Positions 14,387 through 24,851 of a stretch of DNA of 64,000 nucleotides are shown piece by piece. The position numbers and the translations under genes are program-made. This DNA is from Aquamicrobium sp. LC103 (GTDB taxonomy: Bacteria > Pseudomonadota > Alphaproteobacteria > Rhizobiales > Rhizobiaceae), in NCBI RefSeq assembly GCF_001014615.2, contig NZ_LBCQ02000001.1, positions 620,001 to 684,000 of the forward strand. Reading direction: 5' to 3'. The first letter of the stretch is position 1. Every line of letters starts with the position of its first letter. The notes under the pieces are model-generated. The model was not told the DNA's origin, ran no database searches, and worked only from the letters and a program-made list of their open reading frames with translations.

Positions 14387-15295
14387 ATGGCGAGACCCGA
14401 GATCAACCGTTCCGGCGAGATCGAAGTGTTCGTGCGCGTGGTGGAAGCTGGGAGCTTTTCCGCCGCCGCGCGCGAACTGCGCATGACGCCGTCCGCCGTC
14501 AGCAAGCTGATCGCGAGGCTGGAGACACGGCTAGGCGCCCGCCTGGTGAGCCGCTCGACGCGCAAGCTGCAGCTCACGCCGGAAGGCGCCGGCTTCTACG
14601 AAAGCGGCACGCGCATACTCGCCGACATGCTCGCGGCCGAGCGCGAGGCGGCGGCGGGAGCGGCGCCGCGCGGGCGGCTGCGTGTCAACAGCTACGTGCC
14701 GTTCGGCCAGCACAGGCTGATCCCGCTCCTGCCGCGCTTTCTCGAACGATATCCGGACGTGGCGGTGGACCTGGTGCTGACCGACAACGTCATCGACCTG
14801 ATGGAGGAACGCGCGGACGTTGCCATCCGCGCCGGTCCGCTCGGCGAATCGAGCCTGATCGCGCGCAAGCTCGGCCAAAGCCCGATGGTGCTGATCGCCG
14901 CTCCTTCCTATCTCGAAAGGCGCGGCGTGCCGCGCAGCCCGCGCGACCTTTCCTCGCACAATCTCATGGATTTCTGCTTCGTGCGGCGAATCGGCGGCTG
15001 GCCGTTCATCGACGAGGCGGGCGAGGCGATCATGATCAATCCGGCAGGCAACACGCTGGTCAGCGACGGCGAGGCCATGCGGCGGATGGCGATTGAGGGG
15101 GCGGGCATCGCCCGCCTTGCGCGCTGGCATGTCGGTCCCGACATCGAGGCGGGGCGGCTGACGCCTCTGCTGGGATCATTCAATCCCGGCGATCAGGAAG
15201 TCACCCATGCCGTCTATGTCGGCCAGGGCAAGCACCTGCCGGCGCGGGTGCGGGCGTTCCTGGATTTTCTAGTGGAACATGCAAGATTGTATTGA
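14387..15295 (+). CDS. LysR-family transcriptional regulator
   Basis: A 302-residue DNA-binding regulator. The N-terminal winged helix-turn-helix is clear (VRVVEAGSFSAAARELRMTP, SAVSKLIARLETRLGARL), followed by the two-lobed effector domain (PLLPRFLERYPDVAVDLVLT). The ATG at 14387 has no good Shine-Dalgarno; a candidate operator overlaps that position. An upstream in-frame start at 14297 would add 30 atypical residues and is rejected. It is divergent from the MFS exporter, which it probably controls; the inducer is unknown. Confidence 0.92.
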   Translation: MARPEINRSGEIEVFVRVVEAGSFSAAARELRMTPSAVSKLIARLETRLGARLVSRSTRKLQLTPEGAGFYESGTRILADMLAAEREAAAGAAPRGRLRVNSYVPFGQHRLIPLLPRFLERYPDVAVDLVLTDNVIDLMEERADVAIRAGPLGESSLIARKLGQSPMVLIAAPSYLERRGVPRSPRDLSSHNLMDFCFVRRIGGWPFIDEAGEAIMINPAGNTLVSDGEAMRRMAIEGAGIARLARWHVGPDIEAGRLTPLLGSFNPGDQEVTHAVYVGQGKHLPARVRAFLDFLVEHARLY

Positions 15296-15300
15296 GTCGT

Positions 15301-15711
15301 TCAGGCCGGCGCGTCGGACCATGGATTAAGCACGGCAACGCCGGTGCCATCGAAATCGGCGATATTTCGGGTGACGACCGTCAGGCCATGGACAATCGCA
15401 GTTGCCGCTATCAGCGCATCGGCTTCGCCGCGCCTATGGCGAGCGGAAAGCCTACCCCATTCGAGGGCGACATCCTCCGTTATCGGCAATATCCGATCGC
15501 CATTCTCCTGTCTGAGCGTTTGCAACCATTTCTCAAGCTCGCGTGCCTTAGCCGGCTTACTGGCACGCACCATTTCAATGCCGCGTTCGATCTCGCCCAA
15601 TGTGATCACGCTTAGGTATACTGAGCCGGAATCTACCGACGACAACCATGCCACCGGTTCCGGAACGCCTTTGTGGGCATCCGAGAACGTGTTGGTATCG
15701 ATGAGATACAT
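15301..15711 (-). CDS. PIN-domain toxin (VapC-like)
   Basis: A 136-residue PIN-domain ribonuclease of the VapC/FitB type. The four acidic positions of the Mg2+ site are present: Asp in MYLIDTNTFSD, Glu in ITLGEIERGI, Asp in GEADALIAATAI, and Asp in TRNIADFDGTG. The ATG at 15711 overlaps the stop of the upstream gene by one base (TGATG), so the two are translationally coupled and the upstream gene is presumably the antitoxin. VapC toxins cleave tRNA or rRNA when freed from the antitoxin; the target here is unknown. It converges with the LysR gene. Confidence 0.9.
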   Translation of the reverse strand: MYLIDTNTFSDAHKGVPEPVAWLSSVDSGSVYLSVITLGEIERGIEMVRASKPAKARELEKWLQTLRQENGDRILPITEDVALEWGRLSARHRRGEADALIAATAIVHGLTVVTRNIADFDGTGVAVLNPWSDAPA

Positions 15712-16046
15712 CAGAAATCGATAGGTGGCCGGCTGGATGCCTTGCTCCGCCGGTTGACTGCCTCGTACATTTCCTCCGGCCAATCGGGTCCGGAAAGTAT
15801 ATGGCTGATCAGCGTCGGCCTGTTTTCAGCGACGCTTGCGGTGCCCACGCCACGCTTGACGCTGTCGATCGCCTTCAGGGCTTCCGACTTCGAAGTGTAT
15901 CCCCCAGACCTGAAGACGACCTCGCCGTTCGGTGACACATAGCGAAAGCGGATATGGCCGTTCCTGTCCCGGAGCAATTCGAAACGCGCTCTGCCCAGCT
16001 CTCGTTCGTTCGATCCGGCCGTTTCAGATGCAGCTTTTCCTTGCAT
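15711..16046 (-). CDS. DUF1508 (YegP-like) domain protein, putative antitoxin for the adjacent PIN toxin
   Basis: A 111-residue protein. Residues ~20-66 (RFELLRDRNGHIRFRYVSPN then GYTSKSEALKAIDSVKRG) match the DUF1508/YegP fold. The last ~40 residues (LISHILSGPDWPEEMYEAVN, then a basic stretch and RPPIDF) look like the extended, toxin-wrapping tail of VapB/Phd antitoxins. No ribbon-helix-helix, AbrB or Phd DNA-binding domain is visible. The ATG at 16046 has AGGAG nine bases upstream and is preferred over an in-frame start at 16109. One-base overlap with the PIN gene supports an operon. The antitoxin role is inferred from position and tail. Confidence 0.72.
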   Translation of the reverse strand: MQGKAASETAGSNERELGRARFELLRDRNGHIRFRYVSPNGEVVFRSGGYTSKSEALKAIDSVKRGVGTASVAENRPTLISHILSGPDWPEEMYEAVNRRSKASSRPPIDF

Positions 16047-16118
16047 TCGAAGTGCTCCTGCTTGAAGTCTGCACATCATACCAAGTGTTTTGCCCTGACA
16101 CCACGGCACATTCCACGC

Positions 16119-16778
16119 TCAGCGCGTTCCAAAAATCGCCGAGCCGACCCGCACGCTCGTCGCGCCGAACCGGATCGCGGTCTCGTAGTCGCCGGACATG
16201 CCCATCGAAAGCTTCTCGACGCCGGCCTCGCGGGCGATCTTTTCGAGCAGGGCGAAGTGCGGTCCCGGATTCTCGTCGAAGGGCGGGATGCACATCAGCC
16301 CCTCGATCGCGAGGCCGTGCACGTCGCGACAGCGCGCGACGAAGGCGACCGCCTCGCGCGGATCGATGCCGGCCTTCTGCTCCTCGAGACCGGTATTGAC
16401 CTGGACGTAGAGCCGCGGCGCCTTTTCCTGCCTGGCGATCTCCTTGGCGATTTCGGCGGCGATCTTTTCGCGGTCGACGGTCTCGATCACGTCGAAGAGC
16501 GCGACGGCTTCCTTCGCCTTGTTGGATTGCAGGGGACCGATCAGATGCAGTTCGATGTCGGGAAATTCGGCCCTGAGCGCCGGCCACTTGCCTTGTGCCT
16601 CCTGGACGCGATTCTCGCCGAAGACGCGCTGGCCCGCCCCGATGACCGGCCGGATCGCGTCGGCGTCGAAGGTCTTCGAGACGGCGACGAGCGTGACAGT
16701 GCCTGCCGCGCGCGCCGCGACCTCCGCCTTCGAAATGTTGGACTTTACCGATTCCAGGCGCGAAACCGCGTCTTCCAT
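16119..16778 (-). CDS. yggS: PLP homeostasis protein, YggS/PROSC family
   Basis: A 219-residue alanine-racemase-like TIM-barrel protein that binds pyridoxal 5'-phosphate and buffers its cellular level. The PLP lysine is in LVAVSKTFDADAI (about residue 36). Other family blocks are FGENRVQEAQGKWPAL, LHLIGPLQSNKAKEAV, VNTGLEEQKAGI and LSMGMSGDYETAIRFGATSV. The start MEDAVSRLE is preceded by AGGAATGAG. It is divergent from leuS, a recurring arrangement in rhizobia. Confidence 0.95.
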   Translation of the reverse strand: MEDAVSRLESVKSNISKAEVAARAAGTVTLVAVSKTFDADAIRPVIGAGQRVFGENRVQEAQGKWPALRAEFPDIELHLIGPLQSNKAKEAVALFDVIETVDREKIAAEIAKEIARQEKAPRLYVQVNTGLEEQKAGIDPREAVAFVARCRDVHGLAIEGLMCIPPFDENPGPHFALLEKIAREAGVEKLSMGMSGDYETAIRFGATSVRVGSAIFGTR

Positions 16779-24162: not shown

Positions 24163-24612
24163 TCAGCCCGGCAGTTTCTCGAAGGGATTGGCGTAGTCTA
24201 CTTCGAGGAATTGGAAATGCCTGCCGTTTGTCGTCAGGAGCGTCATGCCGTGCGTCTTGGCGATCGCAGCGATAAGCACGTCGGCGAGCCCGGGATTGCG
24301 ACCCTTCGCCGTTGCCGCATCATCGATGGCTCCCGCGACCCTCGCAACATTCGCATCTATTGCGGCGATACGATCGCCGAACAATCCTATCAGGCCGTCG
24401 AGCCATTCTCCCAGCCGATCCGCGCGGACATCGCCCCCGGCCCGCCGCAGCTTGCGGACGTCCCTCTCGATTTCCGCAACGGCGATCGACGGGATGAAGA
24501 GCGTTTCGGCTTCGCCCTGTTCCGCCATCCAGCGCTTGATTCCCTCGGAAGCGGGTGATCGCTCAGGAGCGAATGCGGAGAGGACCGACGTGTCCAACAG
24601 GAAACGCGTCAA
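24163..24612 (-). CDS. PIN-domain toxin (VapC-like) of a Phd/VapC pair
   Basis: A 149-residue PIN ribonuclease: Asp in FLLDTSVLSAF, Glu in SIAVAEIERDVRKL, Asp in GLADVLIAAIAKTHG, and Asn (not Asp) in LLTTNGRHFQF at the fourth position, a frequent substitution in FitB/VapC proteins. The ATG overlaps the antitoxin stop by four bases (ATGA), the classic toxin-antitoxin coupling. It probably cleaves RNA when unbound. It converges with priA. Confidence 0.92.
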   Translation of the reverse strand: MTRFLLDTSVLSAFAPERSPASEGIKRWMAEQGEAETLFIPSIAVAEIERDVRKLRRAGGDVRADRLGEWLDGLIGLFGDRIAAIDANVARVAGAIDDAATAKGRNPGLADVLIAAIAKTHGMTLLTTNGRHFQFLEVDYANPFEKLPG

Positions 24613-24851
24613 AGCTTCACCTCGCGCATCCTGCTCTCGCTGCGCTCGAATTCCACTCCACCGGGAAACTCCGTAAGAAACGTTCCGAGATTTGGCCTGT
24701 GCAGCGGATAAAGCTTGCGCGCGTCCTCGACCGATACGACGACCGCCGCCGGCTTGCCGTGCCGGGTGATGATCGTCGGCTCGCCGTTCTCGGCCGCGTC
24801 GATCAACGCGGACAATCCGGCTTTCGCCTCTCGAACCTGCACGGTTTTCAT
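24609..24851 (-). CDS. Phd/YefM-family antitoxin
   Basis: An 80-residue antitoxin. It begins MKTVQVREAKAGLSALIDAA, then GEPTIITRHGKPAAVVVS, the Phd/YefM DNA-binding fold, followed by a flexible C-terminal tail that should block the PIN toxin. The ATG at 24851 has GGAG upstream; the longer frame to 24935 is rejected. Pairs of this kind repress their own operon; a candidate promoter lies just upstream. Confidence 0.92.
   Translation of the reverse strand: MKTVQVREAKAGLSALIDAAENGEPTIITRHGKPAAVVVSVEDARKLYPLHRPNLGTFLTEFPGGVEFERSESRMREVKL

Follow-up and report, generated by a model that had tools for sequence, protein, structure and literature searches.

A DUF1508 domain in place of the Phd N-terminal domain in a putative PIN toxin-antitoxin pair of Aquamicrobium sp. 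LC103

The window, i.e. the whole stretch of 64,000 nucleotides of Aquamicrobium sp. LC103 that was analysed, contains on its minus strand two small overlapping genes behind a yggS-type gene. The features of this locus are as follows:

15301..15711, minus strand: PIN-domain toxin gene, 136 aa, FitB/VapC-like (Pfam PIN; D5, E40, D98 and D119 retained)
15711..16046, minus strand: candidate hybrid antitoxin gene, encoding 111 aa with a DUF1508 domain followed by a Phd-type tail (its stop codon shares a base with the PIN start, TGATG)
15825..15968, minus strand: DUF1508 (YegP/HVO_2922-like) domain, corresponding to residues 27-74 of the hybrid protein (PF07411; modelled fold)
15714..15824, minus strand: Phd-type toxin-binding tail, residues 75-111 of the hybrid (tail identity; DNA match to genome G032)
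16047..16118, minus strand: spacer of 72 bases that separates yggS from the hybrid gene (contains AGGAG at 16055-16059)
16119..16778, minus strand: same-strand upstream neighbour of the hybrid gene, which we take from its sequence to be yggS

The hybrid ORF runs from an ATG at 16046 to a TGA at 15713-15711 and the PIN ORF from an ATG at 15711 to a stop at 15301, with one base common to the stop of the former and the start of the latter. The AGGAG lies 8 bases ahead of the ATG of the hybrid gene. Such a small, overlapping two-gene unit with the antitoxin gene first corresponds to the layout of type II systems. Coordinates and strand of the pair, as well as the start of the PIN gene on the stop of the gene upstream, agree with those given in an initial annotation of this DNA.

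The 136-aa protein carries a PIN domain (Pfam, E 8.2e-19) with catalytic acidic residues, and its closest solved relative by sequence is FitB (trafficking protein B; E 9.6e-16). Three of its acidic residues, D5, E40 and D98, have acidic counterparts in FitB (alignment A5). The fourth acidic position of FitB is occupied by N116 in the window protein and D119 is found three residues further, and the claim that all four acidic residues are present thus stands if D119 is counted as the fourth. In the FitAB system itself, the antitoxin FitA is a ribbon-helix-helix protein with neither a DUF1508 nor a Phd domain. The nearer relatives of the window toxin have a different type of partner: the 30 best PIN matches in a family sample of 394 genomes comprise the window and 29 others, and a Phd-type antitoxin is encoded upstream in 29 of these 29, including L123, where the ORF is short and the Phd start was identified by motif.

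The first part of the hybrid protein matches the DUF1508/UPF0339 profile PF07411 with 47.7 bits against a cut-off of 22 (E 1.4e-12), which confirms the YegP-like DUF1508 domain assigned earlier to the upstream gene. In the structure model, this domain consists of three strands and a helix (residues 21-67) and is of moderate quality, with a pLDDT of about 81 over residues 21-60 and 63 over residues 61-70; the tail is modelled with low confidence in the single chain (mean pLDDT under 60), with a helix at residues 91-102. UPF0339 proteins came first in the two fold searches that we ran, Foldseek (E 1.2e-4 to solved UPF0339 structures) and VIA. The best fold match was 6q2z (model residues 17-75, Z 7.0, rmsd 2.8, 59 aligned residues), followed by 3bid (Z 6.6), 2k7i (6.2) and 2k8e (6.0). 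Next after these four UPF0339 structures was MmoD (6d7k; Z 5.7, rmsd 3.8, 55 residues), which is the inhibitory subunit of methane monooxygenase. Two of the UPF0339 structures, 2k7i and 6q2z, are two-chain depositions, and the chains of YegP and SO_3888 are about twice as long; both fit a pairing of DUF1508 domains. The hybrid thus shares domain profile and fold with DUF1508/UPF0339 proteins such as YegP, HVO_2922, Atu0232 and NMB1088, but differs from them by its fusion to a toxin-binding tail and by its departure from all 13 other rows of the alignment at 5 of 12 nearly invariant positions (25, 26, 28, 48 and 55, two of them K to R; alignment A4). A donor of the DUF1508 half was not found in a family sample of 297 genomes, where the best matches were about 50% identical.

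In the same sample of 297 genomes, the hybrid protein matched two kinds of genes, namely DUF1508 proteins and, with 47-67% identity and whole-genome E values down to 1.3e-13, the last ~40 residues of short proteins. All ten of these tail-type rows were inspected and one (L039 in G048) was dropped as a chance frame. A PIN gene lies directly behind each of the remaining nine, and eight of the nine antitoxins (84-91 aa) open with a Phd domain. At the ninth locus (L032, 1330-1512, in G284), the antitoxin ORF before the PIN gene comprises the later part of Phd only and a full tail, and could represent either a shortened Phd or a later start. The tail of the hybrid measures 37 aa and is 70% identical to the best Phd/YefM tail and 63% to the tail of the nearest PIN relative; eight Phd-type antitoxin tails of the same PIN subfamily are 38-70% identical to it (alignment A1). 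Seven positions (L84, G86, P87, W89, R100, K102 and R106) are invariant in a nine-row tail alignment, and tblastn of the tail among scan candidates reached an E value of 3e-16. These similarities are far above chance and bear out the resemblance to a VapB/Phd toxin-binding tail noticed at the outset. When genome_contigs (84,980 species) was scanned with a single peptide pattern for the tail, 30 loci were obtained, partly from the same genomes as the family sample. All 30 have a Phd N-terminus (29 by ORF and L094 by start motif), none has DUF1508, and a PIN match was found behind 26 of them, in pieces at L075 and L078.

The Phd relatives place the boundary between the two halves. Two of them were compared with the phd_fam model and scored 55.6 and 59.1 bits; the model stops at residue 50 in one and at residue 52 in the other, ahead of the matching tail, so that the replacement is domain for domain. 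For the hybrid itself, none of the Phd, RHH, AbrB and HTH models of Pfam and NCBIfam gave a match at E values up to 1, in keeping with the earlier remark that it has no recognised DNA-binding domain.

The most informative comparison was with genome G032, whose PIN protein is the sister of the window PIN in the PIN tree (support 97/86). The gene order at the same chromosomal place is yggS-Phd-PIN in G032 and yggS-DUF1508/Phd tail-PIN in the window. In a blastn comparison, the match to G032 extends through yggS to about base 16127, is absent until about 15819 and resumes there, at around codon 76 of the hybrid, with 69.5% identity over 502 columns covering tail and PIN gene; codon 76 corresponds to the end of the Phd fold. 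The gap between 16127 and 15819 suggests that the stretch replaced comprises the Phd domain and perhaps the spacer, which is so short that divergence alone could account for the missing match there. Since the sister keeps the Phd form, the replacement can be located with a precision of a few codons. The proposal of the initial annotation that DUF1508 takes the place of the DNA-binding module, before a toxin-binding tail, is strongly supported by homology, given that the tail is that of Phds of the same PIN subfamily and that the sister locus has a Phd.

The yggS gene was matched in 148 of 151 genomes, and that of the window is 77% identical to the yggS of G032 and up to 87% to those found elsewhere. 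It lies directly upstream of a Phd-PIN pair in at least three genomes (G032, G062 and G142), as judged from the coordinates compared among the PIN matches listed. Behind the 29 other best yggS loci, Phd-PIN was seen only in G142 (within 1.5 kb, or less where the contig ended). The Phd- or hybrid-PIN modules at the spot behind yggS (G000, i.e. the genome of the window, G032, G062 and G142) belong to three different parts of the PIN tree. Since G062 and G142 do not fall with the window and G032 in this tree, they seem to have arrived separately. A single ancestral insertion for all four loci was considered and rejected: the PIN tree would require three changes, and only the window and G032 group together. 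Modules of this kind may have landed repeatedly at the spot behind yggS. Another Phd-PIN pair, of ordinary appearance, is present in the window 9 kb away (24163-24612 and 24609-24851, minus strand), consisting of a 149-aa PIN-like ORF behind a Phd-like ORF (tblastn, 35% identity to a Phd query, E 2.3e-4).

The regulatory DNA of the pair was compared with that of Phd genes. For this comparison, 49 upstream stretches of 90 bases were picked by the Phd start motif, all distinct in their last 60 bases and many from related genomes; CTAG occurs in 47 of these 49, and two CTAG within 25 bases in 44. The five without a CTAG pair are L078, L089, L094, L095 and L121, and L073 (one CTAG) and L097 were missed by the start motif and stand outside the 49. 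The CTAG pair is often a perfect inverted repeat, e.g. TAGCTAGACAGTCTAGCTA, and the commonest CTAG positions are 13-31 bases before the Phd start (Phd genes in L068-L127). By its place and form, this repeat is probably the operator of the Phd-PIN subfamily. CTAG is scarce in the window, with 24 sites in 64 kb, and 100 of 100 shuffles have at least as many; a CTAG pair is present in 76 of the 63,910 stretches of 90 bases across the window. No CTAG was found within 90 bases before the hybrid gene. Of the features of Phd/YefM antitoxins, the hybrid thus has the C-terminal tail, while N-terminal domain and operator repeat were not found, which indicates that the DNA-binding half of Phd and its presumed operator are both missing.

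A scan of positions 15200-16300 revealed no sigma-70-like promoter (0.4 expected) and two terminator-like sites around the pair, both on the plus strand. In the absence of a promoter match and with the terminator-like sites on the plus strand, read-through from yggS is possible. Considering also that the operator signature is gone, the pair is probably transcribed either as a continuation of the yggS transcript or from a promoter that escaped recognition, and without autorepression of the Phd type. It has to be weighed here whether DUF1508 is itself a DNA-binding module, in which case the hybrid would bind a new operator in the spacer behind yggS and the pair would still be self-regulated. The domain sits exactly at the position of the former DNA-binding half of Phd, its modelled fold of three strands and a helix would be compatible with such a role, and weak fold matches were obtained to the N-terminal part of lambda integrase (1z1b; Z 3.4, 46 residues, 4.5 A), to dsRBDs and also to the N-terminal domain of HicB. 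Such Z values, however, are also typical of common arrangements and were given no weight as evidence, the spacer contains no inverted repeat stronger than those of shuffled sequence (best arm 4, score reached by 177 of 200 shuffles), and no report of DUF1508 binding DNA was found in the literature at the level of listings. We consider this explanation unlikely.

With regard to the distribution of the fusion, no second DUF1508-Phd-tail fusion was detected in overlapping samples at the level of family, order, class and phylum (297, 397, 357 and 378 genomes, respectively), using E cut-offs of 1e-3 for family and order and of 1e-4 for class and phylum; two tail-type rows of the order sample (G381 and G478) stand outside this result. 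The fusion was likewise not seen in the one-pattern scan of 84,980 species. Two scans of viral contigs gave no relatives, and a third gave three DUF1508 loci and no fusion. Twelve loci with alignment rows crossing a stop into the tail region were re-read: in 11 of them, a DUF1508 protein ends at the stop and the sequence behind it is unrelated, and the twelfth (L177) had no match to the motif. A recognised PIN gene was found near none of 83 other DUF1508 loci, a set of better-scoring matches that includes at least two overlapping pairs (L028/L063 and L176/L178). The search for PIN genes there used 11 PIN queries and covered flanking regions of some 1.5 kb (less where a contig ended, and as much as 2.5 kb at the three viral loci), and the count of 0 of 83 may miss diverged PIN genes. 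This count suggests that DUF1508 has no independent link to PIN. A widespread DUF1508-PIN family was rejected on these grounds, i.e. on the outcome in samples, tail scan, viral contigs and neighbourhoods.

The initial annotation had raised the possibility of a poorly described antitoxin architecture, which in the wider sense would occur in many genomes, and had named rare adjacency of the two genes elsewhere as evidence to the contrary. This general claim is not supported and fails as far as the searches reached. The rarity of the adjacency can be explained by a domain replacement, and the sequence data describe, so far, such a replacement in a single genome rather than a widespread family. 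The genus has one species in the collections searched, and very near records may be absent from them. In the literature, we found no paper joining DUF1508 with antitoxins and none on COG3422, the COG of YegP. The main text of the survey PMC2701414 mentions neither COG3422 nor YegP.

Because the fusion is confined to one draft assembly of 34 contigs, it might have arisen as a sequencing or assembly artefact that joined a yegP gene to a Phd-PIN locus. The hybrid, however, is read without interruption in one frame, has a ribosome-binding site of its own and lies within a contig of 692 kb. The DUF1508 part is preceded by yggS and followed by tail and PIN gene, at the site shared with G032, and the assembly contains no other DUF1508 gene: the only match of PF07411 at E values up to 0.1 is the one at G000:C1:635825-635968 (48.6 bits). 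An artefact is therefore very improbable.

The singularity of the locus is also relevant to the question whether it still functions. Comparison of the PIN genes of the window and G032 gave a dN of 0.234 and a dS of 1.33, i.e. a ratio of about 0.18, which is an average over the two branches at a high dS; the synonymous sites of the tail are saturated in this comparison. Averaged over both, the PIN genes are under purifying selection. The branch of the window PIN in the tree is shorter than that of its sister (0.21 and 0.31, respectively), and the window toxin looks maintained. The PIN protein of G032 (L031/L165, behind Phd) has a Y at the nearly invariant D98 position; judging from this residue, the G032 toxin may be inactive, and the Phd-bearing sister perhaps the less active of the two. 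Toxin activity may thus not be retained by every member at the yggS site. Decay of this kind, together with the shortened Phd of G284 (L032), the occurrence of the fusion in a single genome and the lack of both operator signature and promoter match, would agree with a decaying or domesticated remnant, left by a one-off recombination, in which PIN is weakly expressed or harmless and needs no working antitoxin. Against this, the window pair has two uninterrupted reading frames, the toxin retains its catalytic residues, the branch of the window PIN is not lengthened and the hybrid tail preserves the residues invariant among Phd tails. A remnant thus seems improbable to us.

We favour the interpretation that the locus is a type II pair derived from an ordinary Phd-VapC(PIN) system, in which the first half of Phd and the apparent operator were swapped for DUF1508 while tail and PIN were kept, and regard it as probable. 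It shares with Phd/YefM-VapC (PHD-PIN) systems the PIN subfamily, the C-terminal tail, the gene order, the tight overlap and, in G032, the site, and differs from them by carrying DUF1508 for the Phd N-terminal domain and by lacking the CTAG signature. In the Phd of phage P1, the N-terminal domain serves both dimerisation and operator binding (PMC4803016). In the proposed mechanism, this half for dimerisation and operator binding would have been replaced by DUF1508, with the Phd tail and the PIN toxin staying in place. DUF1508 would fold, probably dimerise, and stabilise and present the flexible tail, which in turn may wrap around PIN and shield its acidic active site by means of one of three invariant basic residues, R100, K102 or R106. 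The TGATG overlap would couple translation of the two genes, and the pair would probably be transcribed by read-through from yggS or from a promoter of unrecognised type, without the autorepression typical of Phd.

A precedent for such an arrangement is provided by PMC10440598, according to which toxin-antitoxin modules swap parts and natural Panacea-Phd-C antitoxins exist. In that work, a SUMO-Phd-C fusion neutralised a Doc-type toxin and Phd-C alone did not, i.e. a carrier was needed. The hybrid resembles PanA of C. doosanense in that a globular domain, itself non-neutralising in PanA, carries a C-terminal Phd-C, but it has another globular domain, its toxin is PIN and not Doc, and the function is inferred here and was determined by experiment there (PMC10440598). 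By analogy, the hybrid is likely to neutralise the PIN toxin, and the locus suggests that the principle of a carrier plus Phd-C also operates in the PIN system of the window.

The same work also bears on the role of DUF1508. The globular domain of Panacea is not needed for neutralisation and was hypothesised to be a trigger sensor (PMC10440598), and DUF1508 could similarly be a sensor or stability module, responding to a stress signal or acting on antitoxin turnover, so that the swap rewired toxin release as proposed for Panacea. A survey (PMC13373217) reported 57 cases of a yegP homologue following capK-capS, which hints that YegP/DUF1508 proteins might be part of stress or immune operons. 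We saw, however, no ligand, signal or degradation data for DUF1508, and the five altered positions among the 12 nearly invariant ones imply that an inherited function may have changed. A sensor or stability role is for these reasons rather doubtful.

While PHD-PIN is a well-known pair, there is a strong case for the DUF1508 version as a domain replacement. Such a swap is rarely seen against an unswapped sister, and here G032 retains the Phd form at the same place; moreover, the DNA-binding half and its presumed operator were lost together. The pair makes two questions testable, namely whether any stable carrier with a toxin-binding tail suffices against a PIN toxin in nature, and which role DUF1508 plays. 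As a more general proposition, put forward tentatively and with less than even confidence, DUF1508 can take over in place from the DNA-binding half of an antitoxin. If true, an antitoxin could do without an operator and autorepression of its own by relying on a housekeeping (yggS) transcript, and the hybrid would offer a first clue to the function of the small and widespread DUF1508 domain, as a module for dimerisation, sensing or nucleic-acid binding.
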